Source: a virus
IMG/VR virus record: IMGVR_UViG_3300043607_000020
Location: 1-20,895 of that record
Strand: one strand, 5' to 3'
DNA: 20,895 bases
In this document: in pieces, positions 5,639-20,661 of the stretch
How the letters are laid out: every line of letters starts with the position of its first letter
How positions within the stretch are numbered: the stretch's first letter is position 1
Notes under the pieces: model-generated
The model's database searches: none
What the model was told of the DNA's origin: nothing
What the model saw: only the letters and a program-made list of their open reading frames with translations
Position numbers and translations under genes: made by a program

Positions 5639-6604
5639 TCAGACAGGGCACCTGGCAGAGAGGTGCGGTTCGCCGATGCTCGCCCCACAGTAGGGACAGC
5701 CACTGAATCGCACGCGCTGGGGAGTTGCCGACGCGACCGCGGGCGCTATCCCCTGCTCGCCTGCGGTCGCGTCGGCGCTCTCCACCACGGCGGGGCTGGT
5801 TCCGCCGAGCGGAAAGTCATGGATCTCGCCAGCGAACGCGACGCGCAGTACGTCGAACGTGGCCGGGCCGGTGCGCTCAGCAAACTGGCTCTTCGCCCCG
5901 AGATCGGGCGCAGCCTGCTCAGGGGCGACGTAGGCGAGGGAGACGTGCGCGTGCCATGGCCGGTACTGCTCGGGCAGGTCGACGATGTCGCTGATCTCAG
6001 AGATCGCGATTTCGAAAAACTCGGCCAGGTCAGCGCCGCCGAGCAGCATGACGATGCACGGCTCGGTCGACGGGTTGAGCACGGCCGGCCCGATGGCGTC
6101 GACCGGTACGGGATCGGTCGCCTCAGCCGCCTCGGCCGCCCAGACGAGTAGCTCCTGGCGCACGGGCTCGCCGAGCTCTTCGGCCAACCCCAGGTAGGCG
6201 ATCGTGCAGTGCAGCTCGTCGAGCGGCTCACCGAGACCGGGATCGAGGACGAGGCGCTGCGCATCGGTCGCCGACGGGATCAGCGCGACCATGGCGCCGG
6301 TCTGCGCGTCACCCAGGTTGCCGGCCGCGGTCAGGGGAGAAGTCATCCCGGCAGTATCGCGCGGCGGCGTGGCCATGGCGTACATCGGGAAGGCCAGCCC
6401 GTTGGTTGTCCACTGCAGCCCGTGGTCGCCGGGCAGCGGGTCGCGATGGTCGAGCAGGTTCTGGTAGATCTCGGTCGGGATGCCGCCGGGGTAGGCCGCG
6501 CAGTTGCTGGGCAGGCTGTAGCCACCGTCGGGCCCTTTGCCGCGGGCAAAGGTAGACGTGAAGCGTTCGCACGTCGCGCACTGCGAGGTCGCCTGGGTGG
6601 TCAT
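5639..6604 (-). CDS. 2H phosphoesterase (2'-5' RNA ligase-like) with flanking Cys motifs
   Basis: The 321-aa protein has the two hallmark motifs of the 2H superfamily: HCT at 132-134 (LDELHCTIAYLG) and HVS at 220-222 (WHAHVSLAY). These are the paired catalytic His-x-Thr/Ser that open or form 2'-5' or cyclic phosphate bonds. In front lies a conserved N-terminal piece (CATC at 9-12, C35, then YPGGIPTEIYQ and DHRDPLPGDHG) often seen as a separate small domain next to phage head genes. The C-terminus carries CPYC (303-306) and C319, a possible zinc site. Phage 2H enzymes can degrade cyclic-nucleotide or 2'-5' oligoadenylate-type signals, so an anti-defence role is possible; a head-associated role is equally possible. 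It sits between MuF-linked genes and the protease. The enzyme fold call is firm, the substrate unknown. Confidence 0.85.
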   Translation of the reverse strand: MTTQATSQCATCERFTSTFARGKGPDGGYSLPSNCAAYPGGIPTEIYQNLLDHRDPLPGDHGLQWTTNGLAFPMYAMATPPRDTAGMTSPLTAAGNLGDAQTGAMVALIPSATDAQRLVLDPGLGEPLDELHCTIAYLGLAEELGEPVRQELLVWAAEAAEATDPVPVDAIGPAVLNPSTEPCIVMLLGGADLAEFFEIAISEISDIVDLPEQYRPWHAHVSLAYVAPEQAAPDLGAKSQFAERTGPATFDVLRVAFAGEIHDFPLGGTSPAVVESADATAGEQGIAPAVASATPQRVRFSGCPYCGASIGEPHLSARCPV

Positions 6605-6849
6605 TCGTCGACCACCTGCGCGTCTTCGATCTCGCGGATCGGCTCGCCGACCGTCGCGACCGTGCGGTACGGCTCGAGTCCGCTAGCGTCGGACTCGAGC
6701 CGACCGCGTAGGCCCAGTGCGCTGGCGAACCAGTCCAGCGTCGCGTCCCGCTCAGCCTGGCCGCGGGCGCCGATCGTCGACTCGTCGCCATACAGGGACT
6801 GGCCCGCCTGCGGGATGTTCAGCCCGACGTGCGGCAAGTGACGCGTCAT
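6601..6849 (-). CDS. Small protein (82 aa) in the head operon
   Basis: The ATG at 6849 overlaps the previous stop by one base and its own TGA overlaps the 2H phosphoesterase start (ATGA). It opens MTRHLPHVGLNIPQAGQSLY, has a short helical middle (RDATLDWFASALGLRGRLES) and an acidic end (EPIREIEDAQVVDE). There is no Cys or membrane segment. The palindrome TGACGCGTCA lies over codons 1-4. Function is unknown; conserved tight spacing suggests a head role. Confidence 0.7.
   Translation of the reverse strand: MTRHLPHVGLNIPQAGQSLYGDESTIGARGQAERDATLDWFASALGLRGRLESDASGLEPYRTVATVGEPIREIEDAQVVDE
6839..6848. promoter_or_regulatory. Third copy of palindrome TGACGCGTCA, at a gene start
   Basis: It covers the start codon region of the 82-aa gene. 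Unlike the other two copies there is no TANNNT at -10 distance downstream, so it is not a promoter here. It may be a coincidence of coding sequence. Confidence 0.25.
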
Positions 6850-7088
6850 TAGGCCAGGGTAGCGGCTGCGAGCGCCTCGTCAACGGCTAGCGCGAACATA
6901 TCCAGCGCTACGCCCGAGGCCTCGAGATCGGGTACGTGCTGGTTGTAGTCGCTACCCGCAGGCCGATCGTCCGGCACGGGCACATCGAGGCCGGCCGCGA
7001 TCTCGCCCGCAACCCAGGCCGCGTGCGCGTCGGCAATGGCCAGCGAACGAGCGCGAGCCACGTCGGGAGGATCGATCCGCACGGGCAT
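6849..7088 (-). CDS. Small acidic protein (79 aa)
   Basis: It starts with ATG directly after the MuF stop and ends with a TAA sharing one base with the next ATG (TAATG), so it is inside the head operon. The sequence is helical and acidic with no Cys (ADAHAAWVAGEIAAGLDVPV, then EASGVALDMFALAVDEALAA). It may be a small head-assembly or scaffold-like factor because of its place, but I do not recognise the family. Confidence 0.7.
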   Translation of the reverse strand: MPVRIDPPDVARARSLAIADAHAAWVAGEIAAGLDVPVPDDRPAGSDYNQHVPDLEASGVALDMFALAVDEALAAATLA

Positions 7089-7089
7089 G

Positions 7090-10000
7090 TCACAAGTACA
7101 TCACGCCGTGCCAATCCATCGTCTTATCCAGCAGCAGCCATTTGCCCGGCCAGACCGCCTCTTTGCCACCTTGGCCAGGCTCACGGCCGAACTGGCTCAG
7201 GTCGAACGCGCGCGCCAGGATATCGCCGCGCCGCGCTGAGCGCACATACTCCTGCAGTTCTTCGAGCTGTTGGCGCGTGACGCCTTTCGGCGGTCGAGGC
7301 TTCGCCAGCGCCTGCGTAAGGCGAGTCTGCGCCTTCCCGAGCAGCCGTTCGGCTGCGGCCGGGCTGCTGAACTCGAATCCCTTGCTGGCCCAGGCATAGG
7401 CGCCCACATCGATATTGGCGTGAATGTCGACCTTCGTGATCCCCGAGCGCCGGTACCAGTCGTACAGGTTCTGGTTGAACTGCTCGGCGAATCCCGAACC
7501 GCGGTAGTCGCGACTGAGTACGAGCTTGGCGTGGCCCGCTGTGATCTCGCCCGTATCCGCGTTACGGGTAAAACTGCGCGTGAAGTCGCCGACTTTCTTA
7601 CCCGTAACCGGATCGGTGATCTTGCCCTCGATCAAGATGAAGTCCCGCGACAGAGCATTGGTCTTTGTAACCTCGACGCGCAGCCCGGCATACTCGCCGT
7701 CGATCGCCTTGGCCAGGCGCCTGCCGCCGGCCTCGATGATGTCGTAGCGCTCGGCCATGGTCTCCATGGCGTAGAAGTCCTCGTAGGTTGGCGCCTCGTC
7801 CATAAACTCCCGAATCGTCGGCTGGCCGACGTTGGGACGCGCCGACGGCTTCGGCACCGTGACGACCTGAGCGCGGGCCAGGGGCGCCTCAAGCTGCGTG
7901 CCGTCGGGCAGAGTCAGCGTCGAGCCGCGGCGCACGATGACCACGTCGGCGCCGGCTGGTATTTCTATGCCGCCGACGCTCTCCATGGTTGCCGGGTCAA
8001 ACTTTGCCTTGGCACCCGCCTTGCCGATCGGCTTGATCTTGGCTTTTGGCGCGTCGGCGACCGGACGACCCTGGGCCTTGGTGATCGCGGCGCGCAGCTT
8101 GGCCGTGTCGCCGGTCGCCAGCGCAGCCCGCAACGATTCGAGGGCAGCCGGGTCGGCCCCGCCGAAGATCTGGCCAGGCGCGATCAGGGCCGGATCGAGC
8201 CGCTCGCGAATGACGGCCTTTTCGGCGCCCTTGGCAATGAGTTCATCGACCTCGGCCAGAAGTCGGGCCGTCCCCTGCGCGCTCTCGATGACGCGGTTGC
8301 GCTCGCGGGCAGCATCGCGCAGCGCCTTACGCTCGGCAGCCACGATCTGCGCCGGGGTGAGCGGCTCGGCGGGCCCGGCCTCGATCAGCTTGACCAGGTC
8401 AGCCTTTTTCGTGCCGGTCGGCACGGGGATGCCGCGCTCTTTGGCCAGGGCCCGCAGCTCACCAACGGGCAGCTTCGCCAGGGGTCGCGCGGACACCTCG
8501 GCGAACCGGGAATGCGAGGCGATCGCATCCAGCCGAGCCTCGATGTAGTCGAGCCAAGCGCCCTTTTTCAGCTCGACGAATTCGGGCCGCAGTGCCTCGA
8601 GTCGCTGACGCATGGTCGCGACCTCGACGGGCGTCAAGTCGTTGCCCTCGCGCCACACGTCAACCAGGCTGTCGTCGAATCCGCGTAGATCGTTGCGATC
8701 AAACTCTGCGCCGATCTTCGGCCGTACTCCGCGCCCCTCGGGACCAACGTCGATGAATCGTTCTGCGAAATGGTCGCTGCCGCGCGTGTCCTGGCCTGGC
8801 AGCGGCACGCCCCGGTGATCCTTTGGCAGGTCCAGCCGGAACCGTCCGGCCTCGGTGATGACCTGCGCGGGGGCATTGTCAATTGCGATGATCTTGCCGT
8901 CGCGCACAATCGTATTCGCCGACCATGCCGCGCGGTCAGAGTTACCGATGAGCGCATCCATGAGCCCGATCAATCGGGCGTCGGGATCGGTGGCAATGAA
9001 CTCTTCGGTCAGACCAGCCTCGCGGCCCAGCGTGCCCTCGATGTCCTCGAGGAAGAGCGTTCGCGCATTGGCCCGGAACACGGCCGGGACCGGCGCGCCG
9101 ATCGCCTGCCCGACCCGGTTGGCCAAGTACTCCGTGTCTAGGCTGCTGCCCTCGCCGGGATGCACCGCCTTGCGATAAGCGAACGAGCCGTCTTCGAGCT
9201 GGACGCGGCGGACAACGGCCGAGACGCCCTGCTCAGGCTTGACGGCCGACGACTCGACGACACCGGTCCCAACGCGCTGCTCAAGATCCGCGTTAGCCGC
9301 CCTGGCTGCGTCGGACGCGATGGCCTCGCGTCGGGCCAGGCCCGGAGTCAGGGGCAGATCGGTCACCTGCACCGCGGCCCGCTCAACGGGCAGCACCTCG
9401 TCGCCCAGGTGCAGACGCGTGGCCGGCCGGATCAGCTGCACCGGCGTGCCGTCGGCGATGTCGGCCCCGATGGACTGGTGCAGGCGCCGGTCGAAGCGCA
9501 CCACGTCGCCGGTCGCGCCGACGAGCTCGATGCCCTCGCGCCCAGCGATCTCGCGCGCCGCAGCCCGCAGCGCGGCCGGCTCGTCGACCAGGTCGCGCAA
9601 CCGAGCCACGTCAAACTCGCTCAGCCCGCGGGCCGGCCCGGTGCCCACGGTGTGCAGCAGGGCGCGCCGGCTGGCTCCGTTGGCCACGAGCTCATCGACT
9701 CGGGCCGCGAACTCGCCGAACGGCACCGCCCGGTCGATCTCGGCCTGGCGGGCGACCGCCCTGGCCTCGGCGCCGCGGATGCGTTCGAACGACGCGGTAC
9801 TGCGTGCGACCACGCCCGGGGCGACCTGCGCCGGCAGGGCGGCGCCTGGAATTGGTGGGTCGGGTGGGCCTTCCCGTAGCGCCGAGACGAGGTCGGATTT
9901 CTTGGCCCGGGCCGCGACCGCGATGCCGCGCTCACGCGCCAGCTGGCGAAGCTGGGCGATCGTCAATCGGTTGAGGTCGAGCGACTCAGAGTTCATCAGC

Positions 10001-11805
10001 AGGTTGAGCAGCTCATCTTGTGGCAACTCGTGCCGGCCACGGGCGTAGGCCTCGCGCATCAGCCGCAAGACACCCTGGCTCAGCTCGGATGCCGCGGGAC
10101 CGGACATGATCGCATCGGCGCTGGCCTCGGCGATGAGCTCATCCATGCTGTTGAGCGCGTAGCCGCCGATCTCGCGCTCGATGTACTCGGGCAGCGGCAG
10201 GCCCGCGGCCTCGCTCAGATCGTCGAGCAGACGCGAGGTGCGCTCGCGCATCCAGTACGGATCGTGGGTGAAGTGGATCCGATGCATAGTCTCGTGCGCC
10301 GAGATACCAGCCGGGTCGGCCATGGCGCGCAGGTGGTAGCGGCGCAGGCGGTCATTCTCCAGCTTGGCCCGGTACAGCGTCGCATCGAGCGACAGATCAG
10401 CGTTGAAGCCCACGACGCCCGTACCGACGTGCGTGCTGGCATAGATCGACTCAGGGTGGTACTGCGATACGTAGATGACGTCGCCGTCGGGGAACTCGCG
10501 CAGCACGCGCAGGGCGCCCTCGGCGTGCGCCTTGGCGATGCCGAGTTCTTGGTCATCGAAGTCGGCCAGGACGTCGCGGCCCGTGATGCGCTTGGCCTCG
10601 ACCTGGAAAGCCCGCGTGACCTCCTCGGGCGTCTTGGCCCGGCGCAGTCCAATGCGCAACCCGACCGGATACGGGGGCGATGGCACCAACGCGTCGGCCG
10701 CGCCCTCGACGCCCTCGCTGCGCAGGCCGAACCGCTCATCGAACGCCTGGCCGACCTCGCGGCGCACCTGATCGGCGCGGGCCCGCACGTCGCCGATCAC
10801 CTGCTCGACACGTGCGCTCTGCTGCGCCGCCAGCGCGTCGAGCGCGCTGGGTCCCGCATCCTCGACGAGTGCGGGCGCGTCGCTGGTGCCGGGCAGCGTC
10901 TCGATCTCGGACGGCGCGAGCTCTGCGGGCGCCCGCTTGACCTGCGCCTCGGTCATGACATAGCCGACCGTGCACCGGCAGTTGTAACGCTCCTCGGGCG
11001 GCAGCCCGGCCTGAGCCGGGAACATGGCCGAAAACCCGCCGACGATGAACGGCTCGTTGAGCGGGATCGGCTTGGCCTGGTACTTGGCGCCGGCCTCGAG
11101 GTGCGTCTCGCGCGTGCGGGGCGGCCCGGTGTCGATCCACTCTTTGCGCATGCCCAGGCCTGACGCCTGAGCCATGGCGAACGAGCCGGCGTTTGACGCC
11201 TCAATGACCTGGGTGCGGGCGACGAGCGTGGCGTTAGCGACCGTCCAGGGCGCATAGGGCACCACGGCCGCCCCGCGCAGCCGCTCGGCCAGCTGGGGGA
11301 TGGACTCGCCGCGCTCGAATCCGTCGAGCAGCGCCTGGCGCGCATTGGCCCAGAGTCCGTCTCCGACCTCGTCGAACGTGTTCTTCGCCTGGGCCAGGTA
11401 GGTCTCAGCGGCCAGCGACCCGACTGGCGCGATCGTCGTGACCCCGGTCGCGTCGATTAGACCTGCGTGCAGCGCGCCGGCCGCCGACTGCCAGACCTGC
11501 GCGACGACGGGCAGCAGATTGGAGACGACCTGCTCTTGCCATAGCGGTGTGATCGCGGCCAGGTCATCGGCGCTGACGTAGGGCTGGCCGGGCGGCAGGC
11601 CGTCATTGGGCGGTACCGGGGGCGTGGCCGGGATGTCGTCCTCGCCGGCCGCGACGAGCGCGAGGACGCCCGAGGCAACCCGGATCTTGGCGATGCGGTC
11701 GGCGATCGCGTCCATGACGACCTGCATGGCCGTCTCGATGGCGCTCTCGGCTACGGCCTCCCACTCGAGCACCGTCGCGTCGGGCAGCCCCGTGATGTGC
11801 TGCAC
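7090..11805 (-). CDS. Giant MuF-type head protein with peptidase-, kinase- and GNAT-like domains
   Basis: At 1571 residues this is several times longer than an ordinary MuF minor head protein. Residues about 150-285 are the MuF domain, ending in ERYNCRCTVGYVM. About 400-580 holds a zincin-like motif HETMH (504-508) with a downstream acidic partner in MDELIAEASADAI. SAP-like modules lie at 610-646 and 1109-1144. Residues about 855-1090 look like a protein or lipid kinase fold: K879, E892, the catalytic loop LMDALIGNSDR with N955, D957 and N964, and IAIDN with D976. Residues about 1360-1490 resemble an acetyltransferase core (SRDYRGSGFA, VGAYAWASKGF). It starts with GTG at 11805, with AGCAGG upstream. 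MuF proteins sit inside the head and can be ejected with DNA, so these domains may act in the host. This matches the 'polyvalent protein' concept; activities are inferred. Confidence 0.9.
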   Translation of the reverse strand: MQHITGLPDATVLEWEAVAESAIETAMQVVMDAIADRIAKIRVASGVLALVAAGEDDIPATPPVPPNDGLPPGQPYVSADDLAAITPLWQEQVVSNLLPVVAQVWQSAAGALHAGLIDATGVTTIAPVGSLAAETYLAQAKNTFDEVGDGLWANARQALLDGFERGESIPQLAERLRGAAVVPYAPWTVANATLVARTQVIEASNAGSFAMAQASGLGMRKEWIDTGPPRTRETHLEAGAKYQAKPIPLNEPFIVGGFSAMFPAQAGLPPEERYNCRCTVGYVMTEAQVKRAPAELAPSEIETLPGTSDAPALVEDAGPSALDALAAQQSARVEQVIGDVRARADQVRREVGQAFDERFGLRSEGVEGAADALVPSPPYPVGLRIGLRRAKTPEEVTRAFQVEAKRITGRDVLADFDDQELGIAKAHAEGALRVLREFPDGDVIYVSQYHPESIYASTHVGTGVVGFNADLSLDATLYRAKLENDRLRRYHLRAMADPAGISAHETMHRIHFTHDPYWMRERTSRLLDDLSEAAGLPLPEYIEREIGGYALNSMDELIAEASADAIMSGPAASELSQGVLRLMREAYARGRHELPQDELLNLLMNSESLDLNRLTIAQLRQLARERGIAVAARAKKSDLVSALREGPPDPPIPGAALPAQVAPGVVARSTASFERIRGAEARAVARQAEIDRAVPFGEFAARVDELVANGASRRALLHTVGTGPARGLSEFDVARLRDLVDEPAALRAAAREIAGREGIELVGATGDVVRFDRRLHQSIGADIADGTPVQLIRPATRLHLGDEVLPVERAAVQVTDLPLTPGLARREAIASDAARAANADLEQRVGTGVVESSAVKPEQGVSAVVRRVQLEDGSFAYRKAVHPGEGSSLDTEYLANRVGQAIGAPVPAVFRANARTLFLEDIEGTLGREAGLTEEFIATDPDARLIGLMDALIGNSDRAAWSANTIVRDGKIIAIDNAPAQVITEAGRFRLDLPKDHRGVPLPGQDTRGSDHFAERFIDVGPEGRGVRPKIGAEFDRNDLRGFDDSLVDVWREGNDLTPVEVATMRQRLEALRPEFVELKKGAWLDYIEARLDAIASHSRFAEVSARPLAKLPVGELRALAKERGIPVPTGTKKADLVKLIEAGPAEPLTPAQIVAAERKALRDAARERNRVIESAQGTARLLAEVDELIAKGAEKAVIRERLDPALIAPGQIFGGADPAALESLRAALATGDTAKLRAAITKAQGRPVADAPKAKIKPIGKAGAKAKFDPATMESVGGIEIPAGADVVIVRRGSTLTLPDGTQLEAPLARAQVVTVPKPSARPNVGQPTIREFMDEAPTYEDFYAMETMAERYDIIEAGGRRLAKAIDGEYAGLRVEVTKTNALSRDFILIEGKITDPVTGKKVGDFTRSFTRNADTGEITAGHAKLVLSRDYRGSGFAEQFNQNLYDWYRRSGITKVDIHANIDVGAYAWASKGFEFSSPAAAERLLGKAQTRLTQALAKPRPPKGVTRQQLEELQEYVRSARRGDILARAFDLSQFGREPGQGGKEAVWPGKWLLLDKTMDWHGVMYL

Positions 11806-16495: not shown

Positions 16496-17213
16496 AGCTC
16501 CAATCCAGATCGGCCTGCTCGAAGTCCTTGCGGACGTTGCGCCTGATGCTCGGTTTCATGAGGCGCGCGATCGTGCGCCGGACCGCAGCGGTAAGGCGCT
16601 GACCGCGCGACATGCGATCGCCGTACGCAGCCACGGCGGCGCGGTCGACTGCCCGCGTGAACGCCATGAAGAACTGCGCCGCACTAGCCGGGTCGGCCAC
16701 GTCGGGCAGGTGCAGCACCGAGATCGGGTCGATCAGCTTCGCCCAGTCCAGGCGCGGCGAGGTCACGACGTGCGCGCTATACAGGATGCGACGAGCCCGG
16801 CCCAGACGCGCCGGATCCTCCCAGCGGTCGCGCACAGCCTCGTCGATCGCCGAATCACGCGTCTCGTCGTTGCGGCCCGGCTGGATGGCCAGATACGCAG
16901 GCCGAGCCGCACCCAACGGGAAATGCACATCCACGATGGTCATAAACTCGAGGCGCTGAAACTCGTCCCAGACGTCGAGCCGGTCGACGAGCTCGTCGAG
17001 GTCAGCGAAGATAATGGCCGGGCCGCGCGCCGGAAACGAGAACTGCGGCTGCTCGTTGCGGTCGGGCTCGGGATAGGGCGACACGCTGAACGGGAAACCG
17101 TCGCCGCCCTCGGCCTGCTCGACGATGTAGTCGAACACATGCTGACCGCGCAGTTTGCACCCCAGCTGGCCAGCGTCGCTGGCGTGATTGAAGAGGCGAT
17201 AGACCTTTAGCAT
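16476..17213 (-). CDS. Unrecognised 245-aa protein, first gene after P2
   Basis: The ATG at 17213 has no clear ribosome site (only GGCGGC) and sits 7 bases after a strong -10, which points to leaderless translation, common in Actinobacteria. The sequence is soluble and mixed alpha/beta: a hydrophobic strand ARGPAIIFADLDELVDRLD near residues 62-80, another strand FMTIVDVHFPLG near 90-101, and a strongly basic helical C-terminus (MSRGQRLTAAVRRTIARLMK onward). There is no Cys cluster or membrane segment. I do not recognise the family. It overlaps the next gene by 20 bases. A nucleic-acid-binding C-terminus is plausible from the charge only. Confidence 0.75.
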   Translation of the reverse strand: MLKVYRLFNHASDAGQLGCKLRGQHVFDYIVEQAEGGDGFPFSVSPYPEPDRNEQPQFSFPARGPAIIFADLDELVDRLDVWDEFQRLEFMTIVDVHFPLGAARPAYLAIQPGRNDETRDSAIDEAVRDRWEDPARLGRARRILYSAHVVTSPRLDWAKLIDPISVLHLPDVADPASAAQFFMAFTRAVDRAAVAAYGDRMSRGQRLTAAVRRTIARLMKPSIRRNVRKDFEQADLDWSYASEPE

Positions 17214-17220
17214 GCCGCCG

Positions 17221-17249
17221 ACGCTAGCCGTTTCCTAGTGACGCGTCAA
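17221..17249 (-). promoter_or_regulatory. Candidate promoter P2 giving a leaderless transcript
   Basis: On the minus strand TTGACG (17249-17244), a 17-base spacer and TAGCGT (17226-17221) form a near-ideal promoter in the gap after the large terminase. The -10 ends 7 bases before the ATG at 17213, so transcription would start at or next to the start codon. It shares the 15-base block TTGACGCGTCACTAG with P1. Confidence 0.65.
17239..17248. promoter_or_regulatory. Palindrome TGACGCGTCA overlapping the -35 of P2
   Basis: It is the same perfect 10-bp inverted repeat, in the same position relative to the -35, as at P1. A shared DNA-binding regulator is the simplest reading, but the repeat could also just reflect duplicated promoters. 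Confidence 0.4.
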
Positions 17250-17252
17250 GTG

Positions 17253-18773
17253 CTAGCGCCCACCACCGAACATGCCGCCGAATAGGTCCGTCTCGGACAG
17301 CGTGACCGCGCCGGCAACCGAGCCGTCCCCGCTGCTCGGCACGGGCAGCAGTTCCAGTGCGAGGTACACCGACGCGTCGATGCGGCCCGGCGACTCGGTC
17401 GTGCCCGGCGTGTAGGTCGCCCATTCGCTCTCGAGGTCGGGCAGGTAGGCCGCGGTCACGATGCGATTCTCCACCCACTGCTGCGCGACCGGCTCGGCCC
17501 GCAGCATCTTCCCGCGCTTGGCCGTGACCTCGATGATGCGCGGCACCATGGCGCCGAAGCGGTCGGGCTGCTCGCGCCGCAGCGCATCCCACGACGTGCG
17601 GAGCATCAGCTTGACCATGTCGCCGCCGTAGTTCTTCTCCGCCACGAAGAAATCGGCCCCGGTGTCGGCGGCCAGCTCGCACGCCGCCCGGCCCCAAGCA
17701 TCCGAGCTCATCACGCCGGACGCGTCGTGCGTGAAGTGGCAGCGCCCGTCCTCGCCGAGGTAGCCGGCCACCACGCCGGCCGTGTCCCGGCCACCCCCGC
17801 TGGGGTCGACGGCCACGCCGATGCGCTGGGGCGTCGAGCACTGCTGCACCTCATGACAGCGACGCTCACGCAGCAACGCCCAGGACAGCAGGGCGCCCTC
17901 GGGGGCGCGCGGGTCGCACTGATACAGGGCACGCCAGTCGCGCACGGTCTGGGCCGAGCGGATGCGCTCCCAGTACCGCACGAGCCGCTCTATGGCGCCG
18001 TCGGGGATCTTCGGGTGGGGCAGCGGTTCGCCGGGCGAGCGCCCCAGCGGGTCGGTCTTCGGATCCTCGCAGATGGCCGGCATGATGACCACGCGCCAGC
18101 GTCCGCCGTCGGCCCGGTCGCCCTCCTGCTGCACCACGCGGGCCCGCAGGTCGTCAACGTGCCAGGGCGTCTGCACGATCATGACCTTCGTGCCGGGCTG
18201 CTGGCGAGACAGGATGTCGGCCGAGTACCAGTTGAAGATCGCGTCTCGGCGGGCCTGGCTCTCAGCCTCGGCCCGCGACTTGGTCGGGTCATCGACGATG
18301 ACCAGGTCGGCCGAGAATCCCGTGATCGACGAGCCGACACCGACCGAGCGCACGCCCCCGCCCGTGGTCAGGTTCCAGTGCTTGACGGCGGCCGCGCCGC
18401 GCTCGAGCACCAGCCCGTAGGCCATGCCGTACGTCTCGACGAGTTTCTTAATGGCCCGCCCGAGGGGGACCGCCCGGTCATCGCCGTAGGACCCGACCAC
18501 GATGCGCGCGGTCGGGTTGCGGCAGAGCCACCAAAACGCGCCCCACTCGGTGGCGGTCGTGCTCTTGCCGGTCTGCGGTGCCGTGTTCAGTAGCAGCCGA
18601 TCGAAGTCCCCCCGCTCGAGCGCGTCGAGCTCGTCGCCGATGACGCGCAGGTGCGCGCGCACCTGGTAGCGCGAGTCCAGGTGCGAGGCCAGGGTGACCG
18701 GGGTGCGCAGTTCGGGCCGCTCGACGACGTGGTCGGGATCGATGATCGCCGCAGCGTCGGCGAAGATGCCCAC
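17253..18773 (-). CDS. Terminase large subunit (ATPase and nuclease)
   Basis: This is the packaging motor. With the GTG start at 18773 the protein has 506 residues. The N-terminal ATPase has Walker A APQTGKST (about 65-72), Walker B LVIVDD (157-162) and the coupling motif QTPWH (about 201-205). The C-terminal nuclease has an RNase H-like acidic triad: D323 in GVAVDPSGGG, E379 in FVAEKN and D466 in GRIDASVY. Length and order are normal for a phage TerL. The frame is open 39 codons further upstream, but that part overlaps the 81-aa gene and reads as low-complexity Arg/Ser. It acts at the portal vertex, pumping DNA and cutting it into genome lengths. It is followed by a 39-base gap holding a new promoter. 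Confidence 0.95.
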   Translation of the reverse strand: MGIFADAAAIIDPDHVVERPELRTPVTLASHLDSRYQVRAHLRVIGDELDALERGDFDRLLLNTAPQTGKSTTATEWGAFWWLCRNPTARIVVGSYGDDRAVPLGRAIKKLVETYGMAYGLVLERGAAAVKHWNLTTGGGVRSVGVGSSITGFSADLVIVDDPTKSRAEAESQARRDAIFNWYSADILSRQQPGTKVMIVQTPWHVDDLRARVVQQEGDRADGGRWRVVIMPAICEDPKTDPLGRSPGEPLPHPKIPDGAIERLVRYWERIRSAQTVRDWRALYQCDPRAPEGALLSWALLRERRCHEVQQCSTPQRIGVAVDPSGGGRDTAGVVAGYLGEDGRCHFTHDASGVMSSDAWGRAACELAADTGADFFVAEKNYGGDMVKLMLRTSWDALRREQPDRFGAMVPRIIEVTAKRGKMLRAEPVAQQWVENRIVTAAYLPDLESEWATYTPGTTESPGRIDASVYLALELLPVPSSGDGSVAGAVTLSETDLFGGMFGGGR

Positions 18774-18777
18774 GGGG

Positions 18778-19023
18778 CTACGTGCCCGACCCCGGTAGCG
18801 AGGCGAGCCAGAAGACCTCTCGACCGCGGCGCGTGGCGCTGCGCAGCTCGTAGCCGGCCGCGTTGACGAAATGCCCGCACGCCAGGTCATAGCCGATGAT
18901 CGAAGCCGGCAGGTTGACCCGGCCGCACAGGGTCTCCACGTTCTCGACCGCGGCCACCTGACGCGCGGCCACGGTGCGCGTACCCGACCGGCAGAACGGG
19001 CAGTCGATGCTCGCCCCGATCAC
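18778..19023 (-). CDS. Small zinc-ribbon-like protein (81 aa)
   Basis: The GTG at 19023 overlaps the stop of the preceding gene as GTGA; the frame is open further upstream, but that would overlap the 70-aa gene heavily. The protein carries DCPFC near its N-terminus, a single Cys (TLCGR) and then YDLACGHFV, so CxxC plus CxH could hold one metal ion. It ends with a short basic stretch and FWLASLPGSGT. Its stop lies 4 bases before the large terminase start. I do not recognise the family. Its place between the terminase subunits suggests a packaging accessory or a small regulator. Confidence 0.65.
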   Translation of the reverse strand: MIGASIDCPFCRSGTRTVAARQVAAVENVETLCGRVNLPASIIGYDLACGHFVNAAGYELRSATRRGREVFWLASLPGSGT

Positions 19024-19232
19024 GAGGTCATCGCCGGGTCGTGTATTTCGCAGCCAGGCTTGTACAACTGGCCAGGCTGGAGATCGTGACAGATGCAGAG
19101 CGCGCCGATCTCCAGCGTCTGATCGGTGAACGACGGGCACGGGACCGCGGCACAGGGTTTGTTCCGTCCGGTCGCCAGATCCGTCATCTCGATCCATGCG
19201 CCTTCTGCGCGGCTCGGGGGCATCTCGGTCAC
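19020..19232 (-). CDS. Small Cys-rich protein (70 aa)
   Basis: It starts with GTG overlapping the small terminase stop and ends overlapping the next GTG, so it is one link of a tightly coupled string. There are five cysteines (CAAVPC, CICHD, GC) and two histidines in the last 45 residues, enough for a zinc-knuckle-like fold. There is no membrane segment or signal peptide. It is not a family I recognise. The double GTGA overlap and the Cys/His spacing support it as real. A structural or DNA-binding zinc protein acting with terminase is possible but unproven. Confidence 0.65.
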   Translation of the reverse strand: MTEMPPSRAEGAWIEMTDLATGRNKPCAAVPCPSFTDQTLEIGALCICHDLQPGQLYKPGCEIHDPAMTS

Positions 19233-19909
19233 GCGATCACCTCGCCGTCGATCATCGCAGCGTGGCGCTCGTCGAGGTCACGCAGCAGTCGCGACGCCGC
19301 GCGCTTCTGGTCATCGTTCAGTGCCAGCTCGGGCGAGAGCATCAGTTGCACGATCGCGGTCACCTGGCTCTGCTGGAACGTGAGTCGGCGCGCGTCGAGG
19401 TCCAGCTTGATCATTGCCTCACACAGCTTGGCGAAGCGGTCGCGCTCTTCGTTGAGCAGGCGTACCCAGATGTTGAGCGAGGCGCCGCTCTTCGTCTTGA
19501 GCTCGACCGGGGCCAGGTCGCCGTCGTCAGCGTCGACCGACGGGCGCGACTCCTCGCTGGTCAGCTCGCCGTACACCACCTCATCGGGCAGCAACTGGGC
19601 GCACATGGCCTCGTAGGAGTCGATCAGGCCGGCGCTTCGCTGCAGCTCCTCGGCCAGGCCGTTGACCGGGTCGATATCCGAGCGCGGCACGGCGAAGAGC
19701 GCGGCCACCCGGCGCGCCAGGTTGAGCCGGACGTGGCGCCCCTGCATGCGGGTCGCGCCGCCGTGGAACTTGCAGTGACCCTCACCCGAGTGATCGGTAC
19801 CCCAGCCCGACGGGCGCCGGCACGTCTGCCCCGGATACTCGGGTTGGCGCTTGCGGGCGCCGCAGAAGACTGGACCCCTCGGAATTCGGACAAGCGTCGT
19901 ATTCCTCAC
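19229..19909 (-). CDS. Terminase small subunit (probable)
   Basis: This 226-aa protein has a Cys/His cluster at its N-terminus (C16, C30, C46, H49), ending in GHCKFHGG. That pattern is typical of small terminase or terminase-associated zinc-finger proteins in actinobacteriophages. The rest is mainly helical, with a long segment (about 140-225) rich in Arg, Leu and Ala. The small subunit recognises the packaging site on phage DNA and hands it to the large subunit, encoded two small genes later. The GTG start at 19909 is chosen because a good ribosome site (GGGAGGA, 5 bases upstream) precedes it. The stop overlaps the next GTG (GTGA). The call rests on the Cys/His motif and gene order; the helix-turn-helix usual for this family was not clearly seen. 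Confidence 0.75.
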   Translation of the reverse strand: MRNTTLVRIPRGPVFCGARKRQPEYPGQTCRRPSGWGTDHSGEGHCKFHGGATRMQGRHVRLNLARRVAALFAVPRSDIDPVNGLAEELQRSAGLIDSYEAMCAQLLPDEVVYGELTSEESRPSVDADDGDLAPVELKTKSGASLNIWVRLLNEERDRFAKLCEAMIKLDLDARRLTFQQSQVTAIVQLMLSPELALNDDQKRAASRLLRDLDERHAAMIDGEVIA

Positions 19910-19977: not shown

Positions 19978-20661
19978 TTACCGACCGGGAACACGCCCCG
20001 ATGCTACGGCGGCTGCTAGTGACGCGTCAACGAGCCGCACGCCCTCGAGCGCGTCGGCCACACCCCGCGTTCGTGCTGGCGGCGTAGCGTGCGTGACCCC
20101 GCGCACGAGCAGCTCGACCAGCACCTGGTCCTTGCGGCGGTTCTTCGTCGCGATCACAATGCCGCGCTCTTTGGCCAGGTCGAGCAGGGCTTTCACGCTC
20201 ATCGACTCGACCGGCGCGGATAGGACCACCTCGCGATGCCCGACACGCCGCGCGCCCAGCGGCTCCATGCCGGTCGGGCCGAAGTACCAGGCGACGTCAA
20301 ACGCCCCGTTGTGCCAGGCCGCCCAGACGCGCTCGTTGCCCCGAGCGGCCCGCAGCGTGACGACGTTGACCACGCCCCGGGTCGGTTCGGCCGCGGTCGA
20401 GCCGATCAGTCGGGCCGACCAGCCGCACGAGTGCGCCGCATCCAGCCAGCGCGCGGCGTCGCGCGACACGCCGTCAGAACCTGAATCCAGTTCACGTGCG
20501 GGCTCGAATACGACCGGTACGGCCGGCTGACCTGAACGCGATTCATGTTTGGCGGCCAGGCGCGCCTCGATCCTCTGGCGCTGGCGCACCTTCCAGGCGA
20601 CCTCACGCGCGTTGAAGTGCGCCAGCCACTCGTCGGGGGTCAGCGGCAGCGTCTGCGTCAT
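19978..20661 (-). CDS. Unrecognised 227-aa protein with SAP/Rho-N-like module
   Basis: The ATG overlaps the stop of the resolvase gene by 4 bases, so translation is probably coupled. The N-terminal 40 residues are basic and helical. Residues about 70-150 look like a compact mixed alpha/beta domain with several Trp (RVWAAWHNGAFDVAWYFG) that I do not recognise. Residues 154-188 (MSVKALLDLAKERGIVIATK onward) form a two-helix module ending in a basic segment, like SAP/Rho-N/LEM-type helix-extension-helix domains that bind nucleic acid or proteins. The same pattern occurs twice in the large MuF protein further along. The last 40 codons contain a promoter for the terminase genes. The function is unknown; a DNA-handling role is only suggested by the neighbours. 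Confidence 0.75.
   Translation of the reverse strand: MTQTLPLTPDEWLAHFNAREVAWKVRQRQRIEARLAAKHESRSGQPAVPVVFEPARELDSGSDGVSRDAARWLDAAHSCGWSARLIGSTAAEPTRGVVNVVTLRAARGNERVWAAWHNGAFDVAWYFGPTGMEPLGARRVGHREVVLSAPVESMSVKALLDLAKERGIVIATKNRRKDQVLVELLVRGVTHATPPARTRGVADALEGVRLVDASLAAAVASGRVPGR
20001..20030 (-). promoter_or_regulatory. Candidate promoter P1 upstream of the terminase string
   Basis: On the minus strand TTGACG (20030-20025) is followed after 18 bases by TAGCAT (20006-20001), which fits sigma70-type -35 and actinobacterial TANNNT -10 elements. The first 15 bases, TTGACGCGTCACTAG, recur exactly at the promoter near 17249. It lies inside the end of the upstream gene and would start a transcript near 19994, about 85 bases before the small terminase start. 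Confidence 0.6.
20020..20029. promoter_or_regulatory. Palindrome TGACGCGTCA overlapping the -35 of P1
   Basis: This is a perfect 10-bp inverted repeat covering most of the -35 and the start of the spacer, a typical position for a repressor or activator site. The same palindrome overlaps the second promoter (17239-17248) and occurs once more at 6839-6848. Operator function is inference. Confidence 0.4.

Follow-up and report, generated by a model that had tools for sequence, protein, structure and literature searches.

A palindromic promoter element repeated across related high-GC phage contigs and its candidate ribbon-helix-helix-like regulator

The 20,895-base virus fragment analysed here (the window; GC 0.69) carries two exact copies of the 15-mer TTGACGCGTCACTAG, at 17249-17235 and 20030-20016 on the minus strand, which comparison with related contigs indicates to be copies of a real, phage-wide control element. 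The element, CCACTTGACRYGTCACTAGGT, is carried by about 20 uncultivated high-GC IMG/VR phage contigs, most of which hold several copies. Our preferred reading, to which we assign a probability of about 0.7, is an autoregulated phage-wide regulon in which the repeats serve as promoter and operator together, and a ribbon-helix-helix (RHH) protein would bind their palindrome and repress both its own gene and the phage promoters.

Results

Copies of the element in the window

The first copy forms the promoter P2 (17221..17249, minus strand), with a -35 box TTGACG at 17249-17244, a spacer of 17 and a -10 box TAGCGT at 17226-17221. The second forms P1 (20001..20030, minus strand), with TTGACG at 20030-20025, a spacer of 18 and TAGCAT at 20006-20001. 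The palindrome TGACGCGTCA lies inside both. A 15-mer present exactly twice, followed by TAGCnT at spacings of 17 and 18 and enclosing a palindrome, had been described in a first-pass annotation of this DNA, and each of these features is borne out at both sites.

P2 fills the 39-bp gap between the gene for the large terminase subunit (terL, 17253..18890, minus strand; phrog_38, 1.8e-82; the true start may be 18773), which lies upstream and whose stop codon is 17253-17255, and the next gene. This first gene after P2 (16476..17213, minus strand) encodes 245 aa with no assigned function; its ATG at 17213 stands 7 nt past the -10 box, and its transcript from P2 is probably leaderless. The predicted P2 operator (17234..17253) comprises 20 bp around TGACGCGTCA, with a half-site GTCAnnnGG deduced from relatives; its outer base, G17253, doubles as the final base of the terL stop. 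The location recurs: TTGACRYGTCACTAG followed by TAGNGT and a start codon is found just after terL in two relatives (G002:23126 and G003:3702), and the copy at G001:12902 occupies a similar place 200 bp after terL.

P1 sits within the 3' end of ORF 19978-20661, the gene before terS, and in its reading frame, an overlap that had gone unmentioned in the first-pass annotation. Downstream of P1 lies the small terminase subunit-like gene terS (19229..19909, minus strand; phrog_9231, 3.9e-5), whose GTG start at 19909 is preceded by GGGAGG; a P1 transcript would give it a leader of about 85 nt. The predicted P1 operator spans 20015..20034; relatives keep the site at this position, in reading frames that differ from the window's and in one case in inverted orientation.

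Looking for the palindrome elsewhere, as had been proposed, revealed a third exact TGACGCGTCA that the earlier description had missed. Its core is 6839-6848 (6834..6853 with flanks), at the stop/start junction of two small genes; this copy is coding, as it overlaps the start of ORF 6601-6849, and a promoter-less operator in the structural operon is a possible interpretation. The half-site GTCATTAGG is read there on the plus strand.

Judged within the window, the TTGACGCGTCACTAG repeat is by itself weak and uninformative evidence. Simulations of the window under two Markov models yield 2.8 or 8.3 exact 15-mer direct pairs by chance and further exact 15-mer repeats are indeed found, so the pair alone proves nothing. 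A chance repeat or a coding coincidence in a GC-rich phage would also suit the location of P1 and of the third palindrome in coding DNA, but it is ruled out by the copies in relatives and by comparison with simulated replicas, which leave it next to no probability. The three copies of TGACGCGTCA compare with 0.05-0.09 expected, no replica of the window reaching three, and the relative-derived pattern TTGACRYGTCACTAG matches the window twice, versus 0 in 300 replicas.

Recurrence in related contigs

Relatives were found through TerL (65-70% identity: L004, L005, L006, L008) and by pattern scans. Genes in these contigs, which may be incomplete, were called in this analysis; near-duplicate contigs were merged before counting, and low-GC viral matches with chance-like copies (G005, G007, G027, G030, G031) were excluded. 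The longer genomes have 4-12 copies each. The exact core TTGACRYGTCACTAG occurs 69 times in 722 kb, versus 0 in 20 Markov replicas, and 62 of 75 zero-mismatch copies are intergenic in genomes that are about 91% coding.

Window-type structural genes accompany the element in G001, G002, G003, G017, G018 and G019 and in fragments. Three further contigs (G004, G023, G009) carry the element with different structural genes and have mainly the replication and early module in common, so that a search by motif can bring together phages that differ in structural module and share this control system. In the TerL relatives G011 to G016, the element is absent or reduced to one degenerate match. A scan of host genomes with TTGACRYGTCACTAGG returned 30 single matches across unrelated phyla, none of them multi-copy. 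Copies also precede exonuclease, primase-side regulator and helicase/methylase genes and a gene of about 300 aa; the earlier proposal of joint control over packaging and accessory genes is thus drawn too narrowly.

Promoter anatomy

Among 67 non-redundant copies with 0-1 mismatch, a TAnnnT -10 box follows at a spacer of 16-19 in 58 (5, 12, 36 and 5 copies at 16, 17, 18 and 19, respectively) and at close to none of the other distances. An ATG or GTG lies 5-8 nt past the -10 in 45 of these 58. Parts of the element outside the search pattern are conserved across the 67 copies as well, namely CCAC ahead of the -35, GGT following CTAG, and TAnnnT; the G directly behind CTAG was fixed in the scan that recruited the contigs and is therefore partly selected. 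The combination TTGACN plus TAnnnT at 16-19 bp, as for the housekeeping sigma factor (sigma-70/sigma-A type), is present in the element, including both window copies, and TTGACR with TAnnnT at a spacer of 17-18 marks these promoters, by sequence, as of the housekeeping-sigma type; they also look leaderless. The first-pass annotation also raised an alternative role for the host sigma factor; this is unneeded, since the -35 and -10 resemble ordinary housekeeping boxes. The -10s are G+C-rich (TAGCGT/TACCGT). The predicted operator is present in most intergenic TTGACN-N16-19-TAnnnT promoters of the element-bearing genomes.

With -35, spacer, -10 and start-codon distance all correct, one might suppose a housekeeping promoter conserved for sigma and RNA polymerase contacts alone, with an incidental palindrome and no dedicated protein. 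We consider this improbable, because conservation extends through the spacer (GTCACTAGGT) and into the upstream CCAC, and because of the behaviour of the palindrome itself, which is enriched over its permutations, is perfect in one G001 copy (CCACTTGACGCGTCAAGTGG), and persists in syntenic copies that are promoter-less, inverted or independent of reading frame.

The palindrome as a predicted binding site

TGACRYGTCA occurs 67 times in ten records, versus 0-12 times (mean about 2) for 23 other half-site arrangements, an enrichment of about 29-fold over permuted palindromes. The central RY varies (GT, AC, GC, AT) while TGAC and GTCA are fixed. A two-fold symmetric site is thus enriched beyond composition, which is the sequence-level signature of an operator for a dimeric regulator. 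Its near-palindrome of about 20 bp, CCnnnTGACRYGTCAnnnGG, extends over the -35 and the adjoining half of the spacer. The copy at G001:48799 is the perfect 20-bp palindrome mentioned above, and the upstream CCAC would therefore be half of the operator, with GTCAnnnGG as the half-site.

Syntenic copies are instructive in this respect. At the P1 spot, at the 3' end of the coding sequence preceding terS, the site is kept in G001, G002, G018, G019 and G020 in reading frames that differ with respect to that coding sequence; in G020 its TAG serves as the stop codon of the upstream gene, and in G017 the site is inverted. The -10 is not conserved at this position and a good one is often missing, which suggests that the P1 copy is kept in relatives mainly as a predicted binding site. 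Likewise, an orthologous tail-region gene of 210-240 aa has a copy nearby in six contigs, in sense orientation in G002 and in antisense in G001, G003, G018, G019 and G021, and without a -10 in G001 and G019. Because such syntenic copies lack a -10 or are inverted, the element is predicted to bind a protein in addition to serving as a promoter.

Symmetric forms CTAnTGACRYGTCAnTAG/TGG were also seen in gaps at G009:46216-46233, G009:38666-38683 and G003:45324-45341; the G009:46219 site lies in the loop of an inverted repeat, GCACAGCC...GGCTGTGC.

A candidate regulator

Contigs that include the early module encode a conserved protein of 80-125 aa, divergent from one special copy of the element, CTACTTGACGTGTCACTAGGTGGTCAACTAC; its gene adjoins the primase gene wherever gene order was read. 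In most genomes read, its own promoter takes the form TTGACC-N18-TAGNGT or TACCGT-ATG and carries the palindrome in its spacer, and a palindrome between -35 and -10 would be the usual layout for autoregulation. Of 24 records searched, 13 bear the element, and 11 of these encode the protein, the remaining two being fragments; the 11 element-less TerL relatives all lack it. A scan of the viral collection with the regulator alignment gave 11 loci, all on element-bearing contigs. The gene is absent from the window contig, which is a fragment, and the protein has no match among the INPHARED isolated phages. Co-occurrence of regulator and element can be common descent, yet G004, G023 and G009 differ in their structural genes. 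Together, the constrained -10, the fixed start-codon distance and this co-occurring small DNA-binding-type protein give good support to the earlier suggestion of a repeated promoter with a palindrome and a phage-specific regulator.

An invariant T-x-Q strand and a helix motif SxxxxxR...G are seen in the protein, and its structural model (pLDDT 74) places two helices after an extended stretch. RHH proteins (MazE6, CopASO, MatP, ParG and VapB) are prominent among the structures that align with it, at Z 3.0-4.8 (Z 4.0-4.8 for those among the top alignments), with HU close behind. Profile matches to RHH_1, Arc-like, CopG-like and RelB are weak, four regulators weakly match a plasmid RepA/CopB-type model, and Pfam alone gives no identification. 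With weak profile matches, a middling model and VIA Z under 5, we regard an RHH protein as probable.

Another small conserved gene (HTH-like, 92-110 aa, G001:51844) was rejected as a candidate for the regulator, being missing from the gene calls of G003, G017, G004, G023 and G009. The regulators at G004:40287-40676 and G023:14913-15290 have an extra N-terminal Cys/His-rich segment, which weakly resembles a phage zinc-binding domain in the one of the two that was scanned.

Discussion

Based on the above data, we propose that the RHH protein, as a dimer or a pair of dimers, would bind the palindrome, hide the -35 and keep RNA polymerase off, so that its own gene and the phage promoters are repressed together. 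Dilution, replication or an antirepressor could lift the repression, and the promoter-less copies in the tail operon might act as extra binding sites or elongation roadblocks. For the window, this would place the genes after terL under P2 and terS under P1. Repression is the most likely sign to judge from the geometry of the site. The same element and regulator could also work by activation, the protein sitting on the -35 and spacer and, once made, aiding polymerase at the GC-rich -10s. In its favour, almost all recognisable promoters, whether early or late, include the site, and a lysogeny repressor has no obvious use in genomes where no integrase was found. However, TTGAC is a strong -35 that requires no activator, the site lies over this -35, or over the spacer in the regulator's own promoter, as is usual for repressors, and some copies have no -10 at all; we therefore hold activation to be unlikely.

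In its mode of action the proposed repression resembles that of the cluster A mycobacteriophage stoperators (PMC9283540; PMC6550527). Phages such as L5 and Bxb1 likewise have many short genome-wide sites, at promoters and between genes, with TTGAC inside and one phage protein to bind them. Stoperators proper, served by a monomeric repressor like Bxb1 gp69 or L5 gp71, would agree with the resemblance of half of the element to the Bxb1 sites (GTTACGWDTCAAG, 27 copies), with TTGAC in the same sense, and with the copies found between co-directional genes. This explanation is nevertheless very improbable: no significant homologue of Bxb1 gp69 or L5 gp71 was found among 924 predicted proteins, TGACRYGTCA is absent from Bxb1, and cluster A sites are asymmetric (PMC9283540), 13 bp long and more than 20 per genome, versus palindromic sites at 4-12 per genome here. 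Most of our sites are, moreover, promoters themselves, and no integrase was found.

Other known systems share some of these features. SvtR of SIRV1 and AvtR of AFV6 are small RHH proteins that each bind the promoter of their own gene along with several further promoters of the virus (PMC5569661), as is predicted here for a small RHH-like regulator. They belong to archaeal viruses, in a different domain of life, with another promoter type and imperfect AT-rich repeats. Arc and Mnt of phage P22 and the plasmid proteins CopG and CopB combine the RHH fold and autoregulation with palindromic operators overlapping the promoter, at one or two promoters rather than genome-wide. The Streptomyces phage phiC31 has many inverted-repeat operators (CIRs), some of them over early promoters; as far as is known, these differ in protein family and sequence and serve a lysogeny repressor. 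In cluster K mycobacteriophages, start-associated sequences form a short repeat just before several gene starts, whereas the repeat described here is the -35/spacer element of apparently leaderless promoters.

No integrase (PF00239/PF00589) was found in any element-bearing record, which may be incomplete, and the ParA partner (PF13614) of an RHH partition system of the ParG/omega type was not found in 13 records; an ordinary lysogeny repressor is therefore not established. A broader reading, at somewhat less than even odds, is that in these integrase-less high-GC soil phages one autoregulated RHH protein would hold essentially all recognisable promoters, early and late, through a palindrome fused into leaderless promoters and with promoter-less roadblocks in the tail operon, as a global switch, for on/off control or for timing, that works independently of integration. 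Why a phage with no visible integrase would keep one repressor-like protein across its early and its late promoters is a question to which superinfection exclusion, episomal carriage or timing may be the answer. For a dark group of soil phages, the sites offer a readable regulatory map that marks gene starts and operons. They also single out a small protein as the probable master regulator and hint at a compact design of one promoter with one operator.

The GC content, the leaderless starts and the neighbours of TerL suggest an actinobacterial host. The nearest isolate by TerL is Saccharomonospora phage PIS 136 (50%), and primase comparison with isolated phages gives partial coverage only.

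Several other genes deserve mention. A window protein of 1571 aa (7090-11805, minus strand) combines a phage Mu F-like domain with two Rho_N/SAP-like segments, after which comes a long tail, and its counterparts in relatives vary strongly in length. Among the head genes, a 321 aa protein conserved in relatives (5639-6604, minus strand) has a weak match to 2'-5' RNA ligase (2H phosphoesterase-like; 0.00013, below Pfam's cut-off). A conserved tail-distal pair of glycosyltransferase-like genes, recognised by eye from motifs, is present at G018:12132-14409, at G001:44582-47196 and in relatives, and in G018 and G025 the element stands before one of the two genes.
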